A stretch of DNA of 64,000 nt, taken from positions 930,001 to 994,000 of the forward strand of contig NZ_AUHA01000002.1 in assembly GCF_000422945.1 (NCBI RefSeq), written 5' to 3'. The stretch comes from Daejeonella oryzae DSM 19973 (lineage in GTDB: Bacteria > Bacteroidota > Bacteroidia > Sphingobacteriales > Sphingobacteriaceae). How positions within the stretch are numbered: position 1 is the first letter of the stretch; every line of letters starts with the position of its first letter. Of the stretch, positions 40,437 to 53,617 are shown piece by piece. The notes under the pieces were generated by a model, which was not told where the DNA came from, did not search any database, and was given only the letters and a program-made list of their open reading frames with translations. The translations under genes and the position numbers were made by a program.

Positions 40437-40472
40437 AACAAAAAGGCCGCTAAATGAGCGGCCTTTTTTGTT
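40437..40472. terminator. Bidirectional terminator after tRNA-Arg and the kinase gene
   Basis: AAAAAGGCCGCT pairs with AGCGGCCTTTTT around AAATG, with A and T runs on both sides. It ends the tRNA transcript and, on the other strand, the kinase operon, whose last stop codon lies 15 bases away. Confidence 0.87.
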
Positions 40473-40487
40473 CTATAATCTGTTTTA

Positions 40488-41891
40488 TTAAAATATTCCC
40501 AGAAATTTCTTTTTCTTTCCCTTTTTCTTTCCCTTCGTTTGACCAGAATCAGAGCTGCCCCTGTATTTTTTAACGGCGTTTTTTAAAGCTGCATTTTTAA
40601 TGCTGTCTGCTCTTTCCTGGCTTGCCGATCGGGTGTCGACAGGTCTGAACGGGCCAAATCTGTTAATCTGTCTTTTATTTATCTCATTCGGATCTTTTAC
40701 ATAATTTGAATCTGTAACCGGCGGATAATAGGAGCTTTCAGCAGAATTTTTTCCTAAAAATGAATAGCCCGCAAAACCCATAAGAAGGAAAAATGCAATA
40801 AGTGAGGCATATACCAATGATCTGGATATCTGAAGTTTTCCGGGCTGTGATTCAGCTTTTATTTTTTGTTCATTTCCAGAATAATTGAGGGCTGCGGCGG
40901 TTTCAAACTCAGCAATTTTTTGCTGCAAGCGCTCATTTTCACTTTGTAAAAGAATTATATTTTCCTCTGAAAGCTGTTCTGTATGATGGATGCTTTTACC
41001 GCAAATAGCCCTGTGCAATTCTATGCCATTGCTAAACCGATTTTCAGGTTTTTTTTCCAGGCATTTGTAGATAATGTCAATCAGCCATACCGGAACCTGC
41101 ATTTCCCGGTGTCTCTTGTCCGGACTCCAGTTTTGCGGCAAATGTTTCTTCCTCAACTCCAGAATATCCGGAACAGGTATTTCCATATGTGAAAGCATGA
41201 CTTTATTGCGGGAGCTGTGCCCGTTATCATCTAATGGGAAAGGAACTACCCCGGCAATCAGTTCGTATAAAATAACTCCGAAACTATACACATCCGACTC
41301 GAAAAGCATTTGCCCTTCGTTCTGTTCCGGAGCCATAAATTCTACGGCTCCTGCATTTCTCAGACTTGTTCTGCGCTGCTCGTCAGACATAATGGCCAGG
41401 CCAAAATCCAGCAGGACGTAATTGCCGAAATACGAATTCAGTTTAACGTTATTGCTTTTAATGTCTCCATGCTTAACATCCACTTTGTGGCAGTGAGATA
41501 AAGCGCCTGAGAGTTGTTCAGCAACCTTAATACTTTCCTTAATGGTAAAAACTGGATCATGCGGGGATTTTAAAAGATCTTCCAAATCCGGTCCTTCTAT
41601 ATATTCCATTTCTATGAATGGAAAAGAGCCGCTTTCTGTAATCCCGGAATTCAAAATCTTCACCACATTCGGGTTCGGATCCCTGTTTACCCGCTTGAGT
41701 TTTTCAACTTCATTATTGAAATCACGAAAATTTTTGTCTTCAAGGCTCTCTGTGAATATGGGCGTTGGCAAAAGCTTTACAGCAGAAATAAGTTCTCCCA
41801 TTCGCTTACCTTTAAATACAGAACCCTGCCCGCCGCTGCGCAAAGCGCCCATGTTCTCTAAACCTTCTGTAATTGTAAATATCTTCGCCAT
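40488..41891 (-). CDS. Transmembrane Hanks-type serine/threonine protein kinase
   Basis: The 467-residue protein has a cytoplasmic kinase domain (about 10-300). Visible motifs are the glycine loop SGGQGS (19-24), the ATP lysine K39, the catalytic loop HGDIKSNN with D143, K145 and N148, DFG at 162-164 and MAPEQ at 186-190. The arginine of the usual HRD is glycine, making it a non-RD kinase. A coiled-coil-like stretch (about 308-332) leads to one membrane helix (359-379) and a periplasmic tail of about 88 residues, lysine-rich and without PASTA repeats. It is the last gene of the FHA/PP2C/SEDS-PBP operon, 9 bases after the FHA gene. Likely targets are its operon partners. Confidence 0.92.
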   Translation of the reverse strand: MAKIFTITEGLENMGALRSGGQGSVFKGKRMGELISAVKLLPTPIFTESLEDKNFRDFNNEVEKLKRVNRDPNPNVVKILNSGITESGSFPFIEMEYIEGPDLEDLLKSPHDPVFTIKESIKVAEQLSGALSHCHKVDVKHGDIKSNNVKLNSYFGNYVLLDFGLAIMSDEQRRTSLRNAGAVEFMAPEQNEGQMLFESDVYSFGVILYELIAGVVPFPLDDNGHSSRNKVMLSHMEIPVPDILELRKKHLPQNWSPDKRHREMQVPVWLIDIIYKCLEKKPENRFSNGIELHRAICGKSIHHTEQLSEENIILLQSENERLQQKIAEFETAAALNYSGNEQKIKAESQPGKLQISRSLVYASLIAFFLLMGFAGYSFLGKNSAESSYYPPVTDSNYVKDPNEINKRQINRFGPFRPVDTRSASQERADSIKNAALKNAVKKYRGSSDSGQTKGKKKGKKKKFLGIF

Positions 41892-41900
41892 CTTATCGCT

Positions 41901-42689
41901 TTACTCCTGCTCTTTTAAATAGCTAAATTCTATAACTGCCGATTCTCCCAATATTACCTGATCGCCCTCGCCTAACTGATAACCTATCTTAACTGAATTC
42001 AATTTGATTAAAGCATCGTTGGCTGCAGAACGGATTTTTATTTTATTCCTTGGCGGGATTCCACCTTCATCCCCATAGATCATAAAGCAGGCTATATCAT
42101 TGTTCCAGATTATATGGGCATGAGACCGGCTGATATATTTATTTGCATCATGATTTGCTTCATCCGGAAAGGCAATTTTATTGACCCTGAAAAAGCCATC
42201 ATTAGCCAGCACTTTTTTGCCTCTTCCGATGGTAATTTTTCCGCTTTCCGAATTAATAGGATACTCATTCTTTTCTGCTTCGCCATGTAAAATGCGGATA
42301 TACGCTTCTGCTGTTCTATGTAAAACGTGCTTACTGGTTTTGATAAAAAGGGCAGAATTTAGTCCATCAATTTGTAACGCTTCTGCCGGAATATTTTCTG
42401 AGAAAGTAAATTCCATCATCCAGTTTTCCGGCAGGTCAATAGCATAATCATCAGCAATTTTCTGAACTTCAGTTTTAAAGCGGCCTGGATTTTCAACGTA
42501 TAAAGCAGATTCGTATAAATGCCTTTCGTCATCGCTGCAGCTGATAAACAGATGCAAACCTCTGATATGGCTGCCTTCTCCACCTTCAACTTTCTGAAGT
42601 TGCTCTTTTATAAAACACAAAAATAATTCCCTGATATTTTTAACGTCAGGCGTACTATTATTGGCTTGGGTGTTGAATATATTGAACAT
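41901..42689 (-). CDS. FHA-domain protein
   Basis: A longer frame opens with TTG at 42737. The ATG at 42689 is preferred, giving 262 residues. The C-terminal half (about 145-258) is an FHA domain with the phosphothreonine-binding signature: ITIGRGKK (G155, R156), ISRSHAHIIW (S187 to H190), and a late LNSVKIGYQLGEGDQVILG. The N-terminal half is soluble and of unknown family. Its LYVENPGRFKTEVQKIADDYAIDLPENW stretch weakly recalls the N-terminal domain of actinobacterial FhaA. It probably docks phosphorylated partners between the kinase encoded 9 bases downstream and the SEDS-PBP fusion encoded upstream. Confidence 0.85.
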   Translation of the reverse strand: MFNIFNTQANNSTPDVKNIRELFLCFIKEQLQKVEGGEGSHIRGLHLFISCSDDERHLYESALYVENPGRFKTEVQKIADDYAIDLPENWMMEFTFSENIPAEALQIDGLNSALFIKTSKHVLHRTAEAYIRILHGEAEKNEYPINSESGKITIGRGKKVLANDGFFRVNKIAFPDEANHDANKYISRSHAHIIWNNDIACFMIYGDEGGIPPRNKIKIRSAANDALIKLNSVKIGYQLGEGDQVILGESAVIEFSYLKEQE

Positions 42690-42778
42690 GCTATTGATAA
42701 ATTTTCTCCGGATTATTCTATTCAAGAAATAGTCCAAAATTTTAAAAACTGAACTGAGCTGAAAACTTAATTTAAGTT

Positions 42779-45700
42779 TTAGTTAAGAGCTTTACCCGCT
42801 GAACTCGCCAAAAGTGAATTTCGAGCAAAACTTTTAATGTATCCTTTTTTAATTAAAAGAGGAACCACATGCTTGCCGGCAAGCTGAACTGCGTCACTTG
42901 ATCCTTTGGTTGATTCGATGCGTACACAAACAACCATATTCCCGGGCCCATTGGCTTTGGGCGCAAAAAATACATACCATCCATCATTTATCCCTTTGCC
43001 TTTCCAGATTCTTTCCGGTGTTCCGGTTTTACCAGCTACAGATATTCCTAAAGTATATGCTTTGGGAGCACTTTGTTCTTTCATGTAATTGGTAAGCAGG
43101 CGGGCATATTCTGAACTGTTTGCCAGCTTTGTTCCACTTTCTGTTGGTATTTCCCGATTTCCGGCTTTTAAAACGTAACGGTCAGGCAGCATAATTCCGT
43201 TATTGGAAATTCCCGCCGCCAGGCGTGCTACCGATGCAGGCGTAGCAATGAGCTCCCCTTGTCCCCATGACATTCCCGAAATTCCTTTGGCACGTGTTCG
43301 ACGTATGTTGGCCGGATTGTAACGGGGTTTGCTGTTAAATTCGGTCTTTTCCCAAAGCTCACGCCACTTACTTTCCTGAATGCTATTACCAGGTTTTTTC
43401 CCGTAATAATATCCGCCAACTCCGTGCAAAAACATCCCGGTTTTCATATAAAGGTTGGTCATTTCATTTTGAAGATGTTCTTCATTCGCCAACTTTATAA
43501 AAAATACGTTGTTGGATTTCACAATGGCTCGCTGCATATTGATCAACCCGGTTTCATCCGGTTCAGGCCCTTTTGTGCGGATTCGTTCAAAAGCGCTTAC
43601 GCTGTATTTTTTATCAGCGGCAGCCTCACCCATTTTATTAAAAGCTGCCAGCGCAGTTAATACTTTTGCTGTAGAACCGGGCTGCGAGGCGTATGTAAAT
43701 CCTAAATCCTGGGTGCTGGTCCATTCCGACAGATTGTTTTGTTCAGCAGGAGACATGGTAAGTCTTTCCCAGTTCTTGGTTTCGGGAAGCGGATACATCG
43801 CTGAAGCGATTACATCACCGCTGGAACCCTCCATAATTACCACAGAAACCCGGTTGTCTTTTAATGAATCATCCAGTGAAATGGATTTTTGAATGCTGGT
43901 TTGTAAGCCTGCATCCATGGTTAACTGTACATCCCGGTTTTGATTTTTAAAGGATTCGACTTTTTCGCTGTTTATTCCGGCGATAAGTAAAGGTCCCAAG
44001 GCGCTATAATCTTTTTTGCTGACGGTCATTTCCTTAACTCCTCTGGCAAGAAAACGGTCTTCGCGGTAGCGGTTTGCGATTACATCAAATTTACTTGAAG
44101 TTGTTTCAAATCCCCTTAGTTCGGCAGAATGCTCATATTCTGCAAAATAACCGTTAACGCTGCCATTAAAAACTCCCGTATTCGCATCTCCTATCCAGAA
44201 AAACATTTGTTCTTCAAAAGGATAATACCGGTCGAGCCGTTTATGCTCAGCTGAGTCGATGTCGTAATTAGAAATACCCGCTTCGCGAAGGATATTCTTT
44301 TGTTTTCGGATCAGATCGGGTTTACTTGTTGCCAGAATTCTTCCCTGCCGGTCATATAAAGATCCGGCTTCGAGTTTGTTCATCAGAATAGAAATCCGGG
44401 GATTGTAGCTGAACATACGTGCTCCGCTTTTATCGGCAACCAGCGAAGGTTTTACCACCCATTTTGTATTATTCAGAAAATATCTGGATACACTTGCAGT
44501 CAATAACAGAATCCCGATAAAGGCGGCAGCAAGAGCGGGAACGAGGTTACGGTCATGCTGTGTGCTTACGTAAGTCATCTGTACCACGGTTCCTTTGGTT
44601 AAGGATGCCGATAGCAAAAATCCGGCAGCAAGCATGTTTACAACCAGAGAAGATCCGCCATAACTTTGAAAAGGCAATGATACGCCCGATAGCGGCAAGG
44701 CACCGGTTGAGCCTCCGGCAATCAGCAGGAATTGTACAAATGTGCATATTCCGATTCCGGCACATAAGTAAAAGAGAAAAGTCATGCCCGTTTGCCGGCC
44801 TATTATAATCGACCTGTGCAAATACAAAATGAATAATATAAAAACCGAAATAATTCCTGCCCAGCCAAATTCTTCGCCGATGGAAGGCAAAATCATATCG
44901 GTATGCGCCTCCGGAATTGTTTTGGCAAAACCCTGCCCGATTCCCTGCCCGGTCAGTCCGCCGGAAGACATGGCCCATATTCCATTGGCTACCTGGTCTC
45001 CGCCATATACTTCATTGTTCCAGGCATCCAGCCAGATTGCCTTCCGTTCAACAAGCCGTTGTACCGGTCCCGGGAAAATTTTATTAAGCTGTGGAATTTG
45101 ATCAATAGTTAAAAATCCGGCCATTATGATCAATACCATAATAGCAGATTCACTTAGTTGTTTACGTTTAAACAGAGTAACTAAGATTAACACAAATACG
45201 GTAAGACCTGCGGATAACCACACGCTTTTCAGTATCCAGTTAGCCAGCACGTAGAAAACAACCGAGGCTATCATAAACATGAAATCGCCTCTAGAAAAAG
45301 AAAATAAAATAATGAAGGTAAAACAAACCACCATTGCGGGACCCAGATCTCCCAAAAGAAGAAATAGCAGCAAGCAGACAAATATGGCAATCAGTGCGAA
45401 TGAGAAAAACGACCAGCGTTTTTTTAAGCTGGGATACTGACTTATAAATTTTTCATTGGCTGTAAAAAATCCCGCAAGGAACAGTATTACGAGGTATTTA
45501 ACAATTTCGCTGGGCTGAATGCCAAATAAATTTACTTTTACCCCGCTGCCTTCGGGCCCGGTTCCCAGCACAATGGTTGAGGCCAGTAAAACAATAGCCA
45601 GTGCAATCCACGGCCATCCGTTGGCAGCTTTGCGTATGCTTTTAAAAATAAACATGCGATATAAAAGGGAGTCGGCATTGAATTTTCGCACATTAAATAA

Positions 45701-46876
45701 CAAGAGTGCACAAATTCCGGCCATGCCGATTCCAAAAAATGTAAGCGTGTTTTTGGCCAGAAACCGATCCCGTAAAGGGTCCTGAAGACTCAGTAATGTA
45801 AGAAAGGATAAGCCGGTCATGATCATTAAAAATGGGAGGATCAATTGGTCGGCCTGCGGAAAAAATCTGGATATAATTACATGGAGCAGTAAAAATGAAA
45901 CGATAAAACTAGCCGCAATAATCCAGTACCATCGGTTAAATTCATCAGGTGTACGTACAATTAAAGATTTTTCCTTTTTCAGGATAGTAAAATCACGAGG
46001 TGATAACAGGCGAATGGTATGAGGAGATTGTAAAAAACGGAAGGAAACATTTTCATCAAGTTTTTGAATCCCCTGGGAAGTTCCAAATTGGAAACCCGGC
46101 TGCAAAGGTAAAACCCGGTATGCTTTTTCATCGGGAAGGTTGCTGAAAGCGAACTCGCCATTGTCGTTTGTACGGGCATAAGCTGTTAAAGACTGTAGTT
46201 TTTTAAGTTTATTTTCATCCTGAATAAAAACTTTAGTAATTCCTGAAGTGCTTTCTATAGCTACTTTTTCTACCTCTTCCATATCGCTGGAAATACTATC
46301 CTGCGGGATTATCATTTGGAGCCGAACCACAACACCGCTAACCGGCTTTTCATCCTTATTGAGGATAGTACCGCTTAAAGTATATTGTCCGGCGGCAAGG
46401 TTTGTTGTTGAAGAAAAGGATTGCGGTTTGGTTCTTTCCTGATCGAACAGGAGAGAATCGTTGCCGGTAAAGCCCAGCAAAGAGCGGGATGCTTTTACGC
46501 GTTTCTTAAAAGATTCTCCGCCGCGTGTGTACGCTTCATCCGCAGAAATTGTGTATTTACGTTTATTGATTTCGCCTGTGTTATCAATCTGACTATTTTT
46601 ATTTGGCAATCTTTCCTCAACAACCGACTCAATCAATTGAATATCCTTTTTGTCCTCAAAATAATAGCCTTTTTCCAGAAGCGTTTTAATGCGTTCGCCG
46701 GGATTTCCTTCATTCAGGTTCACCATGGTGCCGTCGGCCAATCTTCTGGAAACATCACTAAAGTCTTTTTGCAACGTATTATATAAGCTGAAGAATAGCA
46801 GAAGAAAAACAAAGCCGATAAGTATTAAAAAAATCCGTTCTCTTTTTCTGTTGGTAGCAGGTAGATTTTTAATCAT
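42779..46876 (-). CDS. SEDS glycosyltransferase fused to class B penicillin-binding protein
   Basis: The 1365-residue protein combines both halves of a peptidoglycan synthase. Residues 14-32 form a membrane helix. About 165-265 form a carboxypeptidase-regulatory-like domain (YTLSGTILNKDEKPVSGVVVRL), placed in the periplasm. About 317-760 form the multi-helix SEDS (RodA/FtsW) domain with GIGQGFAKTIPEAHTD, where D660 matches the catalytic aspartate. After a helix at 778-797 comes the transpeptidase with S1068-x-x-K1071, S1121-N-N and K1283-T-G-T. Both active sites look intact. RodA/FtsW and their PBPs are normally separate proteins. It lies between PP2C (45 bases) and FHA (89 bases) genes. Confidence 0.93.
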   Translation of the reverse strand: MIKNLPATNRKRERIFLILIGFVFLLLFFSLYNTLQKDFSDVSRRLADGTMVNLNEGNPGERIKTLLEKGYYFEDKKDIQLIESVVEERLPNKNSQIDNTGEINKRKYTISADEAYTRGGESFKKRVKASRSLLGFTGNDSLLFDQERTKPQSFSSTTNLAAGQYTLSGTILNKDEKPVSGVVVRLQMIIPQDSISSDMEEVEKVAIESTSGITKVFIQDENKLKKLQSLTAYARTNDNGEFAFSNLPDEKAYRVLPLQPGFQFGTSQGIQKLDENVSFRFLQSPHTIRLLSPRDFTILKKEKSLIVRTPDEFNRWYWIIAASFIVSFLLLHVIISRFFPQADQLILPFLMIMTGLSFLTLLSLQDPLRDRFLAKNTLTFFGIGMAGICALLLFNVRKFNADSLLYRMFIFKSIRKAANGWPWIALAIVLLASTIVLGTGPEGSGVKVNLFGIQPSEIVKYLVILFLAGFFTANEKFISQYPSLKKRWSFFSFALIAIFVCLLLFLLLGDLGPAMVVCFTFIILFSFSRGDFMFMIASVVFYVLANWILKSVWLSAGLTVFVLILVTLFKRKQLSESAIMVLIIMAGFLTIDQIPQLNKIFPGPVQRLVERKAIWLDAWNNEVYGGDQVANGIWAMSSGGLTGQGIGQGFAKTIPEAHTDMILPSIGEEFGWAGIISVFILFILYLHRSIIIGRQTGMTFLFYLCAGIGICTFVQFLLIAGGSTGALPLSGVSLPFQSYGGSSLVVNMLAAGFLLSASLTKGTVVQMTYVSTQHDRNLVPALAAAFIGILLLTASVSRYFLNNTKWVVKPSLVADKSGARMFSYNPRISILMNKLEAGSLYDRQGRILATSKPDLIRKQKNILREAGISNYDIDSAEHKRLDRYYPFEEQMFFWIGDANTGVFNGSVNGYFAEYEHSAELRGFETTSSKFDVIANRYREDRFLARGVKEMTVSKKDYSALGPLLIAGINSEKVESFKNQNRDVQLTMDAGLQTSIQKSISLDDSLKDNRVSVVIMEGSSGDVIASAMYPLPETKNWERLTMSPAEQNNLSEWTSTQDLGFTYASQPGSTAKVLTALAAFNKMGEAAADKKYSVSAFERIRTKGPEPDETGLINMQRAIVKSNNVFFIKLANEEHLQNEMTNLYMKTGMFLHGVGGYYYGKKPGNSIQESKWRELWEKTEFNSKPRYNPANIRRTRAKGISGMSWGQGELIATPASVARLAAGISNNGIMLPDRYVLKAGNREIPTESGTKLANSSEYARLLTNYMKEQSAPKAYTLGISVAGKTGTPERIWKGKGINDGWYVFFAPKANGPGNMVVCVRIESTKGSSDAVQLAGKHVVPLLIKKGYIKSFARNSLLASSAGKALN

Positions 46877-46921
46877 ATTTATTAATTGGAGTAGATGAGA
46901 TCTGGTTGATTGAGGGTAATT

Positions 46922-48319
46922 CTATTCGGGCTGCTTGTTAACAGGAGCGTTTCGTTGCAGAGTGGGAAGTGTTTCTACCTCTGTTTTGCAATTATAAAAT
47001 CTGGCGTTTTTCAATAGCAAAACATCCGGAGCTGCTGATATGGCGATATTGAAATTCCGGAATGTTAAACTGTCAAGCACAGTATTTCTAGCATCCGGCG
47101 AAATCAGTAAAGCGGGTCCGGAATAATTGCCGGCACTTTTAAGCTCCAGCTTGCCGCTGGCTTTCATGTAAAGGGAATCCCGCCTGATAAAGATCGTATC
47201 GCTAATAATAATAGTTTTTCCAAAAACGGAATCAGAAAGAATCAGTGAGTCTCCCTGAAAGGCATCGATAGTTTCCTGTAATTTTATTTCAGATGAATTT
47301 CTGGTATTTACAACAACCGCAGGGGCATAATTTTCTTGTTTTACCTGTTCTTTCGTATTGCTATTCCAAAGCATCCATAAAAATGAACTCAGAAATATGA
47401 GGCACAGAACAGAAAGTATAATAATGCTTTTTCGGCCTCTCTTTTTTGGCGGCCCGGATTGTTCTGATTCAGCACTATTCACGACGGTTTCTGTCAAAGC
47501 TGATTCCTTAACAGAAGGCATTTTTTCTTTCAGGTTTTGAACCGGCATTGTTGCCGATTGTTTAACCGGCTGATTGTTGTTAAATACCAGTACAACGGTA
47601 ATATTATCCTTGCCGCCATTTTGGTTGGCAGCATCTATTAATAAATTGCATTTTTCCTGCAGCGAATTTTCCCGTACAAGAATAGATGTAATTTGCTTCT
47701 TATCCACCATATCGGTCAGCCCGTCGCTGCAAAGCATTAATATGTCACCGGGTAAAAACGGAGATTGGCCGGTTTCAATAAAATCATCCTTGCTTCCAGA
47801 TTGCTCTTTCATGCCCAGGGCTTTATTTATTTCATTCCTTTTGGGATGACGCATGGCTGCTTCTTCTGTCAGGCGACCGCTTTCTTCCAAAAACCCTATA
47901 AAAGAATGGTCTGTAGATATTTTAACCAGTGACTTATCGCGAAGCAAATACAATCTGGTATCGCCAACATGGGCGTATGAAAATTGATTTTTTTCCAGAT
48001 CGACTATCGCCAGCGTGAGCACACAGGCCATATTAGAATGCTGAGGATTACTTAATTTGGCTTCGTAAATTCTTTCGTTAGCTTTATTAAACGATTCTTT
48101 CATTAGGGAAGTCAAATCCTTAACAGGATTTTCGAAATGCTCGATAATGCTTTTCCGGGCAATTTCTGCTGCTATTTCACCGCCGGAGTAACCGCCTACG
48201 CCATCAATTACGCAGGCAATAATCAGCTCATTTGCGCTTATTTTTTCAGCAATAAAAGTATCTTCATTATTGCCGCGAACTTTCCCCGTATCTGTTTTTC
48301 CGAAGTAAATTTCAGTCAT
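46922..48319 (-). CDS. PP2C-family protein phosphatase with transmembrane helix and periplasmic domain
   Basis: The 465-residue protein begins with a complete PP2C domain (1-246): RGNNEDTF with D20, VIDGVGGY with D39 and G40, AHVGDTRLYLL, CSDGLTD with D199 and GGKDNITVV with D238. These supply the metal ligands. A lysine/arginine-rich linker (PPKKRGRKS) precedes one membrane helix (298-317). The remaining roughly 145 residues, a beta-rich possibly right-handed helix-like domain, are periplasmic. Actinobacterial PstP has the same phosphatase, helix, external-domain order. Its start overlaps a 32-codon membrane-peptide gene by 8 bases. Predicted role: reversing the operon kinase. Confidence 0.92.
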   Translation of the reverse strand: MTEIYFGKTDTGKVRGNNEDTFIAEKISANELIIACVIDGVGGYSGGEIAAEIARKSIIEHFENPVKDLTSLMKESFNKANERIYEAKLSNPQHSNMACVLTLAIVDLEKNQFSYAHVGDTRLYLLRDKSLVKISTDHSFIGFLEESGRLTEEAAMRHPKRNEINKALGMKEQSGSKDDFIETGQSPFLPGDILMLCSDGLTDMVDKKQITSILVRENSLQEKCNLLIDAANQNGGKDNITVVLVFNNNQPVKQSATMPVQNLKEKMPSVKESALTETVVNSAESEQSGPPKKRGRKSIIILSVLCLIFLSSFLWMLWNSNTKEQVKQENYAPAVVVNTRNSSEIKLQETIDAFQGDSLILSDSVFGKTIIISDTIFIRRDSLYMKASGKLELKSAGNYSGPALLISPDARNTVLDSLTFRNFNIAISAAPDVLLLKNARFYNCKTEVETLPTLQRNAPVNKQPE

Positions 48320-48410
48320 TACGTTTATATGAGTTTTTTATATCCATAAAATGAGCAATTAATAAAAATACGCAGAGGACCAATAAGGCCATGGATAGAA
48401 TATGAGCCAT
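48312..48410 (-). CDS. Predicted 32-residue membrane peptide in the kinase/PBP operon
   Basis: A short ORF fills the gap between the FHA-like and PP2C genes. It reads M-A-H-I-L-S-M, then a hydrophobic run (ALLVLCVFLLIAHF) and a polar tail (MDIKNSYKRND), i.e. one predicted membrane helix. It begins 5 bases after the upstream stop codon. Its TGA overlaps the PP2C start (ATGACTGA), a classic coupling geometry. This tight fit at both ends is the main support. No family is recognised, and a chance ORF cannot be excluded. Confidence 0.5.
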   Translation of the reverse strand: MAHILSMALLVLCVFLLIAHFMDIKNSYKRND

Positions 48411-48414
48411 CAGA

Positions 48415-49362
48415 TCAGGATTTAAAAATATTAATGCCAATAATACCGTTCAGCATAATTCTGGAGTTAAGGGGTAATTCTACCCATTCCGGATGATTTA
48501 TTTCGCTGATTTTAACTTCTTTTTCATTGAGAATTGTTTTTTCGCCGAACGAAGCAAGGTAAAATTTACCATCAGAAGTATTATGCCGTATTTGCAGATG
48601 CGGTGTATTAACCCAGTCTGATGGAACTATGAAAATATTTTTATCATCACGGGTTTCATCTTTTCCGGATACCAGAATTTCATTTTCTTTCATTAAATAT
48701 TCGACCCGCTTTCCGGAAAATTCCTTTTCGTGAAGAATTGTCTCCAGGCGGGCCAGTGTTTTCACCGGAGCCGCAGGATTTTTTTCGTCGTATTGCAGTT
48801 CTTCCGCATACGGAACCTCGTAATAACCCTCGCTGTAAAATGTAAACCCTTTGAGAATTTCCTGGTTCACGTCATAAGTCTGAGCAATTCCCGTTTGCCG
48901 GGGAATAAAAGTTACCCGCAAATTTTCTTCTTTCTGATCGCTACCCGGTAAAAGCTTTCCCATAAAACCCATATCTCCTTTTTGATAATCGGGATGAGAA
49001 ACAAACCTGAACACCCATTTAGAACTGGATGGCTCTACCGTTTTTCCTTTATTTCGGTAATCCTGCAAAAGCAAATAAAATTTCTTTACGGATTCATGTA
49101 CAATCAAACCAAAAATGCCTTGTTTGTTATCCATAAATTCTTTGAAATCATCAGGACTAAAGCAGATGATAAATTCATGATAAAATACCTGCCTGTTTGC
49201 GAAAGATAATTCGGTTATAGATTCGTTAAATTTATTCAGAATATAGGTGTAAACATCATTTGGAGTAAGTGACTGAGGTTTTGAAGAGGTGTTAACCTCA
49301 TCTCCGGTCAAAAACCATTCATGTATATTAAGGCGCTCCCAGAAGGTAGATTTTTCTTCCAT
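48415..49362 (-). CDS. FhaA-like protein with degenerate FHA domain
   Basis: The 315-residue protein appears to be the first gene of the kinase/PBP operon. Its N-terminal part (about 30-100; YTYILNKFNESITEL, FYHEFIICFSPDDFKEFMD) recalls the N-terminal DUF3662-type domain of actinobacterial FhaA. The C-terminal roughly 90 residues have the secondary-structure rhythm of an FHA domain (NEILVSGKDE, TPHLQIRHN, YLASFGEKTILNEKEV, VELPLNSRIMLNG). The G-R and S-R-x-H residues that contact phosphothreonine are absent. It may be a structural rather than phospho-reading partner. The assignment rests on pattern and neighbourhood, not on a database match. Confidence 0.62.
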   Translation of the reverse strand: MEEKSTFWERLNIHEWFLTGDEVNTSSKPQSLTPNDVYTYILNKFNESITELSFANRQVFYHEFIICFSPDDFKEFMDNKQGIFGLIVHESVKKFYLLLQDYRNKGKTVEPSSSKWVFRFVSHPDYQKGDMGFMGKLLPGSDQKEENLRVTFIPRQTGIAQTYDVNQEILKGFTFYSEGYYEVPYAEELQYDEKNPAAPVKTLARLETILHEKEFSGKRVEYLMKENEILVSGKDETRDDKNIFIVPSDWVNTPHLQIRHNTSDGKFYLASFGEKTILNEKEVKISEINHPEWVELPLNSRIMLNGIIGINIFKS

Positions 49363-49500
49363 AAATTATAAAGAATAAATTTATTTCGTGTAATTACAAT
49401 TTTTATACCACTAAAACCTGTACTGAATACGTTTTAATAAGATTAAGTAATTGCTAATAATTATCAGATTAATATTTTCTGATATTCAGATAATTACAAA

Positions 49501-49528
49501 CAAAAAAAGGCGGGATTGCTCCCGCCTT
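49501..49528 (-). terminator. Intrinsic terminator of the OmpA-type gene
   Basis: AAGGCGGGA pairs with TCCCGCCTT around TTGC. Read on the minus strand it ends in a run of seven T, 20 bases after the stop codon of the 49548-51485 gene. Confidence 0.86.
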
Positions 49529-49547: not shown

Positions 49548-51485
49548 TTATTTAACCGGAATAATATCAATAATTACGGTTCTGTTGTAAAAACGTTCTT
49601 CGGGAAGATTGTTTTCAAACGGTGAGTGGCTCACGTCTTCTCCAAAACCCATAGTTTCAAATTTTACATTATTTCTTCCGGAAGCGGACAATGCACGCTC
49701 AAGAATTTTCTGAGTTTGCAAGGCCCGGTTTGAAGATAATTTCTGGTTGTAACCTTCTTCTCCGATAACATCTGTGTGACCATGTACAATTACTGTTGAA
49801 CCTTCAGATATTAATGGAGTAACTACATCCGTTAAGAATTTATCATATGAAGCGATTGAATTGGCCTTGTTGAAATCGAATAAAATACTGTAGCGGAAAC
49901 CTTTTGGAGTAGTTTCATCCTGGCGTACCAAACGAAGAGTACTTTCTTTTTTAACAGGAGTTCCATTTTTAGTTTCGCCCAATAAAGTCACTTTGTAGTT
50001 TCCTTCTGCTGCATTACCTAAAATTGACATTCCCGGAACACTTTCCTGATCTCTTGTAAAAGGACCGAATTTTTGGATAGTACCTGCTTCATTAGTCATT
50101 TCTACAGACCATGTTTTCAATAAAACATTTGCTCCGTCTGCGTTGAAAACTACATGACTGTCAAGAGGATCTGCTTGAGTAGCAATAAATTGTACAGGTT
50201 TCATCATACCGCCGCCAACTTCCATTAATAATTCAGAAGAACTGCTTTCAATATCAACACGTCTGTCTCCAGCACGAAGTACTACCAGCTCTTTGGTTGC
50301 ACCCGGCTGCTCAGAAGGAATAAGGGGCTTAGTCCGGCCTTTAGTAGAAATCCTAGAGGCCTCAATTCCGAATACAGAAACCAAATATTGTTTTATCGAC
50401 TCAGCAAACGCTTTACCTTCCTGAGGTCCTTTGGCAGAAGCACCGCTTAACGCGATACTTGAACCCGAATTTGCTCTCATGCGATCTCCTAAAATATTCA
50501 GGATGTTATAATAAACGTTCAATTGTCTGGCAGAACGGCCAGTCATAGTTTCTGTTTGTTCTTTCTGTAATTGCTCTTCTTTAAAAGCCGTTGCCTGCGT
50601 GCTGGAAAGCAATATGTAACGGCCTGGTATCATCGCTGATCCTTCATCAAAAAATACAGAATTACGAAGTGGCAAAGTTTCACTTATCTGGCGTGTTAAA
50701 GGAAGGGTTTTAGGACCACGTACAGCAAAAGTAACTTCACGTACAGGTACTGCAACAACAGGAGATTCTGTAACCGGGGCTTTTTTAGATTTACCAAATT
50801 TTAAGGCAATTCCGGTTCTAACTGTGGTAATAGATAAACTTTCTATATCACGCGGATCTTGTCCGAAGTATGGATGGAAGGAAACAAATGGTGAAAGATT
50901 CACTTTGTTTGCACTGCCTGCAGGAGAAATTTGGAAATCATATCCCATACCTACCTGACCTGAAATCAGAGAATTGCGCATTGCGCTCATTTCTCCATCG
51001 GTATTAGGCTGCTTTTCTTGAGTGTATTCAAAATCATTCTGTAAATTGAATGCTACACGAGGACCGGCAAAAAAGTAGAAGTTAGAAGAAGGAAGTCCCA
51101 AACGCAGGCTTGGTTCAACGGTTAGGTAACTCGTATTGGTTTGCAAAGTTGCCGGGCAATCGCAAGCTGCAATCACATCATCAAACTTTGCACCGCGGCC
51201 ATCATAGCCAACATTTAACATGGCTCCTAATATTCCTGCTGGACGATATTCCATTAGAAAAGATCCGAAAGGACGTACTCCAAATCCTTTATGAAAGGCA
51301 GCAGGAACAATTAATGAATTATTTAATCTTTGAGTTGTTCCATCATAGAAGTTAAAATTTGCGGCACCAGATACACCAAACCACCAGGTTGGCTGTGTAG
51401 TCTGTCCCTGCACTGAACCGAAGCCCAGTATGATCATCAAAGAACAGATGATAAATTTTTGTGTTATTTTATTTGTGGGTAACAT
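49548..51485 (-). CDS. OmpA-family outer-membrane protein paired with ice-binding adhesin
   Basis: The 645-residue protein has a signal peptide (about 1-27, ending SVQGQ). An N-terminal porin-like beta-barrel follows (about 30-235; TSYLTVEPSLRLGLPSSNFYFFAGPRVAFNL, VRTGIALKFGKSKK). The middle region includes SGASAKGPQEGKAFAESIKQYLVSVFGIEASRISTKGR, itself OmpA-like. The C-terminal OmpA domain has VHGHTDVIGEEGYNQKLSSNRALQTQKIL and GFGEDVSH. It starts 77 bases after the ice-binding-type gene on the same strand, separated by a short hairpin. Predicted role: outer-membrane anchor to peptidoglycan. Confidence 0.88.
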   Translation of the reverse strand: MLPTNKITQKFIICSLMIILGFGSVQGQTTQPTWWFGVSGAANFNFYDGTTQRLNNSLIVPAAFHKGFGVRPFGSFLMEYRPAGILGAMLNVGYDGRGAKFDDVIAACDCPATLQTNTSYLTVEPSLRLGLPSSNFYFFAGPRVAFNLQNDFEYTQEKQPNTDGEMSAMRNSLISGQVGMGYDFQISPAGSANKVNLSPFVSFHPYFGQDPRDIESLSITTVRTGIALKFGKSKKAPVTESPVVAVPVREVTFAVRGPKTLPLTRQISETLPLRNSVFFDEGSAMIPGRYILLSSTQATAFKEEQLQKEQTETMTGRSARQLNVYYNILNILGDRMRANSGSSIALSGASAKGPQEGKAFAESIKQYLVSVFGIEASRISTKGRTKPLIPSEQPGATKELVVLRAGDRRVDIESSSSELLMEVGGGMMKPVQFIATQADPLDSHVVFNADGANVLLKTWSVEMTNEAGTIQKFGPFTRDQESVPGMSILGNAAEGNYKVTLLGETKNGTPVKKESTLRLVRQDETTPKGFRYSILFDFNKANSIASYDKFLTDVVTPLISEGSTVIVHGHTDVIGEEGYNQKLSSNRALQTQKILERALSASGRNNVKFETMGFGEDVSHSPFENNLPEERFYNRTVIIDIIPVK

Positions 51486-51526
51486 GAGATATCTTTTTTA
51501 AAAAGTTTTTTCGTTTGTTTTAGTAA

Positions 51527-51542
51527 ATCCCCCGAAGGGGAT
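51527..51542 (-). promoter_or_regulatory. UUCG-capped hairpin between adhesin and OmpA genes
   Basis: On the minus strand ATCCCC-TTCG-GGGGAT forms a six-pair stem with a C(UUCG)G loop, which is exceptionally stable in RNA. No real U tract follows, so it is more likely a message-stability or partial-termination element that tunes the ratio of the two genes. Confidence 0.45.
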
Positions 51543-51562
51543 AAACTTATAATATAAGGTGA

Positions 51563-53617
51563 TTATGGTTTGATAACCGTGGCTGTATTTAAGGTAACAG
51601 CAGTTTGTGCCAATAATCTACCAGTAACTTTTGAACCTGTATTCAGGGAAATAAGCGTTTTACTCAGGATATTTCCGAATAATACTGTGTTGGTTTGAAG
51701 AACTGCCTGACCTGCAACAACCCATGTAATGTTTTTGGCTTGTGCGCCGCCCAGCAACCTAACCTGTGCACTATTATTCAGAGTAAGGTCTTGTGCGATC
51801 TGGAAAACCCATGTATCATTTGGTCCTCCTGATAAAGTCACACTAGCATTAGGATCAATTAAAACTCCAGTACTCCATTTATAAAGACCTGGAGCCAACG
51901 TAAGACCGCTTATATTTCCGGCTCCTCTTTCAAGAATAGGTGCAGGAGTTACTAAATTATTTGCAGTGGTATATGCAGTTTCCATATTTGCAATTGCTAC
52001 TGTCAAATTGCTTGGAGTAGGTGCAGCATAATCAGATGCATAAACTTTTCCGGTAACATGTGTAGCAATGGTTGTGTGTGAAGACTGACCGTTGGTATCC
52101 ATTATTAATCCAAAACCGGTAATTGAGGTGGCAGCAGCCGGACTCACTCCAATATTACCCTCTACTGAAGTAATACCTGTACTTGATATGCCGGATTTAG
52201 TTAAGATTGAATAATCAGCAGCTAAGCCTAAATTGATAGGGCCGGGGCCGATAGCTAACACTGGAGTAAAATTAGCAGTGATTATTTTGTTCGAATTCAT
52301 ATTAACCGTTAGAGGATTTGCTGAACCCGAAGCATCTCCGCTCCATGATGAGAATACGAAACCTGCATTTGCAGTAGCTGTAAGCTGAACTGTGCTTCCA
52401 TGATTGTAATTTGCCTGATTAGGGTTTTTTACAACGTTTCCATTGACAGCATTTACAGTTAGAGTGTAGGTGTTAATTGTAAAATTAGCAACCAATGTTC
52501 TGTTGGCATTTAATACGAACGTATAATTTGCGCTTGTAGACGCAACAACTCCGGTAGCTTTATCTGTCCAGTTAGTAAAAGTGTAACCCGGGTTTGGATT
52601 CGATGTTACAGTTACTGAAGATCCAGAATTATAAGAACCTTCTCCGTCAGTTGTACCACCTGCAGTAGGGCTCGATGATAATACTACCGCTAATTGGGAA
52701 GCAGGTACAACTCTGTAGTTGGCCACCAGTGTTCTGTTTCCGCTTATTAAAAACTGAAAGCTTGAACTGGTAGAAACAATAGCTCCGTTATCTGTCCAGT
52801 TTACAAACGTATAACCTGTATTTGGAGAAGCTGTGACAGTTACTAAAGAACCTGCACTAAATTGACCGCCTCCGGCAGTTATTCCGCCAGCAGCTGGATT
52901 TGAAGATAAATTCACTGCAAAATTTCCTACAGTTACTGCTGCAAAGTTTGCAACCAGTGCTCTGTTACCTGCCAATGTGAACTGGTAACTCGGACTTAAT
53001 GAAGCAACTACACCATTATCTGTCCAGCTTGTAAAGGTAAAGCCTGTATTTGGTACAGCAGATACAGTAACAACTGACCCATTTGCAAAAGTACCAGCTC
53101 CAAGAAGGGTACCGCCGACTGCCGGATTAGCTGATAATGAAACCTGAGGAATTGTGGTGAATGACCATACATAATCCTCAACCATTGCTGTACGCAATGT
53201 ATCAGTTGCACCTGTTGAGATTGTTCCCGTGTAAGTGGTAAATGGCAACAAAGCAACGTCCGGCTTAAATGTGAATACAGTTCCGTTTGCAGTAGGAGCA
53301 ACCGTGCCTTTTATAAGCGTGGTTCCTTGTTTAATTGTAAACGTTGTATTGTTAATTGTAGAAGCCTCCATATCGGTATTGAAGGTTGCAGATATTACTT
53401 TACCCAGAACAACATCAATAGCTTTATCTGTAGGGTCGGTTGAAACAACAACCGGGCAAAGGCCTACAATTTCGCCTTCAAAATTATCTTTTTTACATCC
53501 TGCTAAAAAGACAATCAGTAATAAGGAGAAGGACCATATGGTATTATAAATTTTAGAATAGCTCCGGCTATGGTGCACCTGCGTACTATCCGTTTTAAAA
53601 GTAATTGTTTTGCTCAT
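51563..53617 (-). CDS. Lipoprotein with DUF3494 ice-binding-type domain and repeated beta domains
   Basis: The 684-residue protein has a lipoprotein signal ending FLAGC (Cys41). A Big_5-type Ig domain lies at about 55-153 (VVVSTDPTDKAIDVVLGKVISATF). Four divergent InlB-B-like repeats lie at about 155-450, each with a GSxVTVTAxPNxGYTFxxWTDNG core. The C-terminal DUF3494 domain (about 455-684) shows LGLAADYSILTKSGISSTG, EGNIGVSP, LAPGLYKW and LGGAQAKNITWVVAGQAVL. DUF3494 covers ice-binding proteins and adhesins whose real ligand is often unknown. No ice-binding residues can be confirmed here. The unusually long, charged N-terminal extension before the lipobox is odd. Confidence 0.88.
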   Translation of the reverse strand: MSKTITFKTDSTQVHHSRSYSKIYNTIWSFSLLLIVFLAGCKKDNFEGEIVGLCPVVVSTDPTDKAIDVVLGKVISATFNTDMEASTINNTTFTIKQGTTLIKGTVAPTANGTVFTFKPDVALLPFTTYTGTISTGATDTLRTAMVEDYVWSFTTIPQVSLSANPAVGGTLLGAGTFANGSVVTVSAVPNTGFTFTSWTDNGVVASLSPSYQFTLAGNRALVANFAAVTVGNFAVNLSSNPAAGGITAGGGQFSAGSLVTVTASPNTGYTFVNWTDNGAIVSTSSSFQFLISGNRTLVANYRVVPASQLAVVLSSSPTAGGTTDGEGSYNSGSSVTVTSNPNPGYTFTNWTDKATGVVASTSANYTFVLNANRTLVANFTINTYTLTVNAVNGNVVKNPNQANYNHGSTVQLTATANAGFVFSSWSGDASGSANPLTVNMNSNKIITANFTPVLAIGPGPINLGLAADYSILTKSGISSTGITSVEGNIGVSPAAATSITGFGLIMDTNGQSSHTTIATHVTGKVYASDYAAPTPSNLTVAIANMETAYTTANNLVTPAPILERGAGNISGLTLAPGLYKWSTGVLIDPNASVTLSGGPNDTWVFQIAQDLTLNNSAQVRLLGGAQAKNITWVVAGQAVLQTNTVLFGNILSKTLISLNTGSKVTGRLLAQTAVTLNTATVIKP

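Follow-up and report, generated by a model that had tools for sequence, protein, structure and literature searches.

Within a 64,000-nucleotide stretch of Daejeonella oryzae DSM 19973 (GCF_000422945.1, NZ_AUHA01000002.1, positions 930,001–994,000; hereafter the window), positions 40488–49362 of the minus strand hold six co-oriented genes, which read from 49362 to 40488 as an FHA protein (F1), a small membrane peptide, a PP2C phosphatase, a fusion of a SEDS glycosyltransferase to a penicillin-binding protein (PBP) transpeptidase (SP), a second FHA protein (F2) and a Hanks-type Ser/Thr kinase. This cassette is real, conserved and accessory in the Bacteroidota and, as far as its SEDS part and the FhaA_N domain tell, is related by descent to the actinobacterial fhaA–fhaB–pstP–rodA–pbpA–pknA–pknB cluster, compared with which it is altered by fusion and by the absence of PASTA domains. 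Its products most likely form a conditional, phosphorylation-gated peptidoglycan synthase, and we lean, with somewhat more confidence than doubt, towards an accessory, self-contained phospho-gated synthase module of common ancestry with the fhaA–pstP–rodA–pbpA–pkn cluster. The bolder proposal, that an actinobacterial-type phospho-controlled synthase serves Gram-negative Bacteroidota as a third wall machine, mobile and free-standing, with fused enzymes and replaced sensor parts, appears to us evenly poised; if it is true, control of wall synthesis by phosphorylation is portable as a unit and not a feature of Gram-positive cell cycles.

The locus had been described in a sequence-only reading as these six genes in this order, and open reading frames (ORFs), Pfam matches and FHA folds bear this out; the same reading saw a kinase, phosphatase and FHA set in conserved order around a wall synthase, parallel to the actinobacterial cluster, which profiles and neighbourhoods confirm. 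It also expected the genes to stay together in relatives, and a neighbourhood survey of the best 80 of 287 SP relatives from a scan of named genomes, mostly Mucilaginibacter and Pedobacter with some Daejeonella, Paradesertivirga, Hufsiella and Chitinophagaceae, found F1–PP2C–SP–F2 in the same order on one strand in 78 loci, the contigs of the remaining two ending within the cluster. Irregularities among the 78 are an SP split into two ORFs (L121), an F2 gene 4.2 kb away (L131) and two F1 ORFs (L134). Of the 80 loci, 75 have a kinase match, upstream, downstream or on both sides. The same core order was seen in 19 further loci of the family, some from genomes shared with the 80. Of another set of 32 loci, 25 have F1, PP2C, SP and F2, and the other seven come from another class of Bacteroidota than that of the window (the other class, below). 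The layouts of those 25 are of the window type in nine, K–F1–PP2C–SP–F2–K (K, kinase) in four and F1–PP2C–K(–K)–SP–F2 in 12. The claim that the order is nearly that of Mycobacterium stands for FHA–PP2C–SEDS–PBP and needs correction for the kinase, which may lie upstream of, downstream of or inside the cluster. Chance adjacency of the genes was considered and rejected, their order being kept across loci of three neighbourhood sets.

Among the 25 largest flanking clusters the commonest occurs in 17 of the 80 loci, and by eye these clusters include response regulators, sigma/FecR/TonB-type genes and synteny of related species. The window's own neighbours do not belong to the cassette: metG lies near two and OmpA near none of the 80 loci, and neither was found in the 19 other family loci. 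In Pedobacter panaciterrae O48 (NZ_LGEL01000011.1) two clusters, L128 and L134, share a contig, about 124 kb from each other and oppositely oriented, which is either a duplication or an assembly artefact.

The centre of the cassette is SP, a single chain that matches both FTSW_RODA_SPOVE (2.1e-45) and Transpeptidase (1.2e-22) in Pfam. Hydropathy places an extra first helix (about residues 11–36) and then a further segment, probably periplasmic, ahead of the SEDS helices; this pre-SEDS part scores 24.6 bits with CarboxypepD_reg, under the cut-off of 32.3. The Asp of the SEDS HTD motif and the SxxK, SxN and K[ST]G motifs of the PBP part are each invariant in 80 of 80 relatives. We take the kinase, PP2C, SEDS, PBP and FHA motifs scored here to be the functional ones of their families, and SP is accordingly a predicted lipid II polymerase and cross-linker. 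It is a third SEDS protein, as each of the nine genomes searched has two canonical SEDS genes besides, of the FtsW and RodA clades (labels assigned by us from matches and trees); in the window genome, PBP2- and FtsI-type genes lie close to the canonical pair. The earlier view of a set centred on a wall synthase holds, but the set forms an accessory third system and not the main wall machinery. Two variants of SP were encountered: in the other class, L150:8262-12416 (G294) is a single open frame of 1384 residues with matches to PP2C, SEDS and PBP, a triple fusion, and G247:C121:5312-9085 (L160) encodes a second, divergent SEDS–PBP fusion (36% identity) in a genome already having one.

Ancestry was addressed chiefly through the SEDS part. 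The top match of other-class SP outside the Bacteroidota in a plasmid collection is a locus of Nocardia farcinica whose ORFs read fhaA–fhaB–pstP–rodA–pbpA–pknA–pknB (names assigned by us), and on which the window-type profiles score 138 bits for PP2C, 90 for SEDS, 81 and 62 for the kinases and, weakly, 22 for the PBP. The annotation of a Tsukamurella locus gives DUF3662 plus FHA, FHA, SEDS, PBP, kinase and PASTA kinase, with no gene listed at the PP2C place. In a SEDS tree of 38 rows, the fusions (11 rows) and two actinobacterial cluster RodA proteins stand on one side of a branch (support 100/99), on the other side of which are Bacteroidota FtsW (nine), Bacteroidota RodA (nine) and proteobacterial RodA, FtsW and SpoVE. 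Holding the fusion SEDS with the Bacteroidota's own RodA, own FtsW or both was rejected in approximately unbiased (AU) tests (p 0.005, 0.015 and 0.0002, respectively). The same grouping was recovered when only three other-class fusions were included (100/100) and, at 99/98, in a tree of concatenated SEDS and PBP, where the alternatives had p 6e-6 and 0.017. G247's second fusion, which has a long branch, was excluded from the SEDS, PBP, AU and robustness trees; the AU test and the first robustness tree also omitted a plasmid fusion of Rhodococcus and the Rossellomorea rows. The SEDS part of SP thus appears to share ancestry with actinobacterial cluster RodA.

A second line of evidence concerns F1, which had been called FhaA-like. 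The window protein itself has no Pfam match, and as a plain member of the FhaA family it was ruled out, failing the FhaA_N model. The proteins at the F1 position in the other class carry FHA together with FhaA_N, with 26.5, 27.4 and 19.9 bits in the three scanned (cut-off 25). At E 0.01 FhaA_N was found in six of 195 other-class genomes, three of them over the cut-off, and the same six hold SP, with the FhaA_N gene beside SP in five and on a separate contig in the sixth. Profile comparison, in each case a single one, linked the F1 proteins of the other class to those of the intermediate layouts over most of the length (E 1.8e-14) and the latter to window-type F1 (E 1e-40), whereas a direct comparison of other-class with window-type F1 aligned the FHA part alone; between other-class F1 and two actinobacterial FhaA proteins the profile likewise aligned only the FHA part, to which BLASTP added a weak N-terminal piece. 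On Pfam and this chain of profiles, the N-terminal domain of F1 is, through intermediates, homologous to FhaA_N, so that the label FhaA-like is valid through homologues only.

Both F1 and F2 end in or contain an FHA fold. The predicted structure of F1 has a mean predicted local distance difference test score (pLDDT) of 71.5, rising to about 90 in the FHA part, and the latter matches FHA structures with Z 14.8 and a root-mean-square deviation (rmsd) of 1.9 over 101 residues; one of 36 F1 homologues reaches the FHA Pfam model (E 0.026). His255 is kept in 76 of 76 window-type relatives, while the FHA Arg and Ser-Arg are replaced, and F1 is for this reason probably not a phosphothreonine reader in the usual manner. 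For F2 (mean pLDDT 85.9) the figures are Z 14.3 and rmsd 2.0 over 101 residues, and all 29 aligned homologues match PF00498 at E up to 1, the lowest value being 1.6e-6; by itself the window protein scores 15.9 bits (E 0.017), below the cut-off of 20.7. The FHA residues G, R, S, R and H (GR / SRxH) of F2 are intact in 79 of 79 relatives. The fold searches covered the FHA halves of both proteins and barely probed the N-terminal domains, and FhaA N-terminal structures were not among the matches listed for these FHA-half queries. Nothing useful was matched among solved structures by the F1 and F2 profiles, nor did these match each other. Two other-class proteins at the F2 position (L147:12435-13805 and L150:12479-13753) have a Swt1-like HEPN domain (E 1.5e-25 and 7.4e-22) before the FHA domain.

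The enzymes expected of a phospho-regulatory pair are also well preserved. The kinase has one membrane helix near residues 355–380 by hydropathy, and among 122 window-type relatives Lys39 and DFG are kept in all and Asp143 in 121, with H-G-D replacing H-R-D in 121; H-R-D was found in two of 126 kinase ORFs of the loci. No PASTA match was obtained for the kinase, which scores 134.9 bits against a PknB_PASTA cut-off of 450. It is the sole Pkinase match over cut-off in the window genome, the second place being below it. In the phosphatase the Asp residues of the PP2C motifs are invariant (79 of 79 window-type relatives); the model for Stp1/IreP gives 217 bits against a cut-off of 230. Its single helix with a further part beyond it had been noticed from the translation, and hydropathy agrees, with a helix at residues 295–320 and some 145 residues after it, which are probably external. 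The membrane peptide is present in 70 of 80 loci, and 69% of its single-difference codons are synonymous against 23% expected, an excess which marks it as a real coding sequence under purifying selection.

The cassette is accessory and patchy, and absent from most genomes searched. SP was found in 20 of 121 genomes of the family, the window's included (a 21st match, a 425-residue RodA-like ORF in G044, was dropped); in the window's genus three genomes have it and 10 others listed do not. Across the phylum it was found in 15 of 395 genomes at E 1e-100, and other groups gave 23 of 195 (including one fragment), five of 194 and six of 195. Identity to the window SP is 67–68% within the genus and 64–69% in the rest of the family, compared with 79–80% and down to 61–71% for MetG; in the SP tree one clade for genus g15 is rejected (p 3e-6), and the members of the window's genus do not come out as one clade, although such a clade is not rejected (p 0.18). 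The MetG tree, in which several rows are partial and that of G025 is the wrong ORF, was used for supported genus groups only. Together these identities and the SP tree suggest some horizontal movement beside vertical descent and loss. A copy with the layout F1–PP2C–K(–K)–SP–F2 lies on a 137-kb plasmid of Spirosoma oryzicola, the sole strong match among 72,556 plasmid records; a search of the plasmid collection with other-class F1 gave no match. Plasmid pRWAY03 of Rhodococcus sp. WAY2, typed mobilizable, carries a lone SEDS–PBP fusion of 941 residues (L261:5077-7902), which has a long branch and in the 38-row tree is not on the side of the fusions and cluster RodA, and 214 plasmid records match a RodA-type query (e.g. 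Enterococcus 54, Priestia 34). The module may be spread more widely than the groups surveyed here.

Several points weigh against descent from a common phospho-controlled synthase cluster and against the function proposed. That function is a prediction from sequence; the SEDS trees are unrooted, include two cluster RodA sequences only and show long branches (1.0 and 1.1) to either side, and the groups for the AU tests were chosen once the first 38-row tree had been seen. Window F1 fails the Pfam FhaA_N (PF12401) test, the window-type F1 and F2 profiles detect neither FhaA nor FhaB of Nocardia, and, taken by itself, the PBP domain does not fall with PbpA, a single clade of the two being not rejected (p 0.278), in a tree for which the automatic domain cut started at the wrong SxxK in some rows. 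In the seven other-class loci a kinase match lies 4–5 kb away in three and none was seen in four. The kinase scores 147 bits with PADLOC mad6 and 143 with PD-T4-6, level with 135 for PknB, and, given these equally high defence-kinase scores and the lack of PASTA, has at most a putative kinship to PknA/PknB. Plasmid carriage is rare, at one of the 72,556 records, and that plasmid is typed non-mobilizable.

Some of these points, namely the behaviour of the PBP domain, the kinase without PASTA and the profiles that miss Nocardia FhaA and FhaB, would suit convergence, in which Bacteroidota arrived at a like operon by combining an FtsW or RodA of their own with local PP2C, kinase and FHA proteins. 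However, the SEDS trees and AU tests place SP with cluster RodA, and FhaA_N is present in the other-class relatives, where it co-occurs with SP, which together make convergence very unlikely; on the SEDS trees, AU tests and robustness trees we reject it. Where deep conservation, transfer and convergence had been left side by side, it is shared ancestry, through retention or through transfer in either direction, that is favoured.

The PADLOC matches raise the different idea of a module for defence or conflict, whose kinase would react to phage or toxin while SP would repair or remodel the wall; the patchy occurrence, the plasmid copy and the Swt1-like HEPN of the two other-class F2-position proteins could be accommodated by it. 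Yet the PADLOC matches span little beyond the kinase domain, F1, F2, SP and PP2C (the four other proteins scanned) have no PADLOC match, and inspection by eye of the 25 largest flanking clusters revealed no recognisable defence genes, so that we give this idea little credence. A known anti-phage system was rejected, the kinase being the sole PADLOC match among the five proteins scanned.

On the preferred reading of a phospho-gated synthase, SP would polymerise glycan through its SEDS part and cross-link the strands through its PBP part within one chain. The membrane kinase would phosphorylate threonines of module proteins, the intact FHA domain of F2 would dock on the phosphorylated sites and so assemble or gate the synthase, and PP2C would reverse the action of the kinase. 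F1, its FHA domain being without phosphate-binding residues, would be a phosphorylation-independent scaffold, and the membrane peptide may sit with SP or PP2C in a scaffold role alongside F1. We infer the phosphorylation targets, the FHA docking, the signals and the conditional use; the last is probable because the module works beside complete FtsW–FtsI and RodA–PBP2 machines. Such use could also be that of a backup or drug-tolerant synthase, in which SP mainly replaces canonical PBPs inhibited by, e.g., natural beta-lactams and the phospho-module senses damage, not growth. This is an unlikely variant, though one to be kept in mind, since the occurrence is accessory with one copy on a plasmid, the PBP part resembles PBP2a/MecA among solved structures (60 bits) and a hydrolase that by eye is of the beta-lactamase family (a serine hydrolase) flanks four of the 80 loci; the PBP2a likeness is, however, weak and local, and the hydrolase is found in few loci and on either side.

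Most work on how Ser/Thr kinases control wall synthesis has dealt with Actinobacteria and Firmicutes, in which the key genes are often essential. The cassette adds a third SEDS lineage to the Bacteroidota and raises the question of the module's route between phyla. As it is apparently dispensable and carried by named isolates, and as the window genome has no other clear Hanks kinase, phospho-gating of a SEDS–PBP synthase is here directly testable.

The features of the locus are collected in the table. The genes are spaced, in order of reading, by 4, −8, 45, 89 and 9 bases, and all six are predicted to be co-transcribed. The downstream hairpin was found on the plus strand and is almost a palindrome, flanked by A and T runs. 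Across the window 13 terminator-like sites were found against 9.1 expected by chance, so the case for the two hairpins is their position, not their number; promoter-like sites (29 against 23.6 expected) are not above chance. Upstream of the cassette, 49548-53617 encodes an OmpA/beta-barrel protein (Pfam) and a repeat protein that presumably resembles the ice-binding-like DUF3494 family. Elsewhere in the window, at 9784-31541, there are, by eye from the ORF translations, four genes for TonB-dependent (SusC-like) receptors, each followed by a SusD-like gene.

Table. Cassette genes and flanking signals, in window coordinates.
Feature	Position	Strand	Basis or remark
F1, 315 residues: N-terminal domain and C-terminal degenerate FHA domain	48415..49362	-	ORF, predicted structure, profile chain
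Membrane peptide, 32 residues, one helix by hydropathy	48312..48410	-	overlaps PP2C start by 8 bases
PP2C phosphatase, 465 residues, one membrane helix	46922..48319	-	Pfam PP2C_2 9.8e-13; hydropathy
SP, SEDS glycosyltransferase–PBP transpeptidase fusion, 1365 residues	42779..46876	-	Pfam, motifs, hydropathy
F2, FHA protein, 262 residues from ATG 42689	41901..42689	-	Pfam of homologues, fold, residues
Hanks Ser/Thr kinase, 467 residues, HGD not HRD	40488..41891	-	Pfam Pkinase 5.4e-33
Terminator-like hairpin 3' of kinase gene	40440..40468	.	near-symmetric, 12 pairs
Terminator-like hairpin between upstream OmpA gene and F1	49507..49528	-	hairpin scan
Promoter-like site 5' of F1	49365..49394	-	10/12 to sigma-70 consensus

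Considering known systems, the nearest is the actinobacterial cluster. Passages of PMC6554272 describe the linkage of these genes in Actinobacteria and of pknB–fhaA in a subset of Firmicutes, the role of mycobacterial FhaA and FhaB as phosphothreonine recognition proteins that regulate growth and division, and the co-transcription of pstP with rodA and pbpA in mycobacteria; its main text has no word starting with 'Bacteroid', and the titles and abstracts among the matches listed in the open-access literature gave no description of such a module in Bacteroidota. In Corynebacterium glutamicum a rodA deletion mutant has, according to a passage of PMC8262863, been obtained and studied, in keeping with a RodA lineage that need not be essential. 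Cassette and cluster have in common linked FHA, PP2C, SEDS, PBP and kinase genes, with the relative order FHA–PP2C–SEDS–PBP, and a SEDS protein of the same lineage. The earlier statement that both contain the same parts therefore holds for these five kinds of protein, but not for PASTA or for the FHA residues lost in F1. The cassette differs further in that its SEDS and PBP are fused, its kinases vary in number and place, its second FHA gene follows the synthase instead of standing ahead of PP2C, and it is an accessory third system, whereas the actinobacterial locus is conserved throughout its group.

With the FtsW–FtsI and RodA–PBP2 machines SP shares enzyme families and catalytic motifs, but within the same genomes it forms a separate clade, is fused and has the extra N-terminal helix and segment. 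The PknB/Stk1 PASTA kinases with Stp1/PstP provide a similar pairing of Hanks kinase and PP2C, compared with which both cassette proteins fall under the model cut-offs and the kinase has H-G-D. With its kinase devoid of PASTA and so far below the PknB_PASTA cut-off, the cassette is not classed as a PASTA-kinase locus and appears instead to be a relative of such loci that may work like one.

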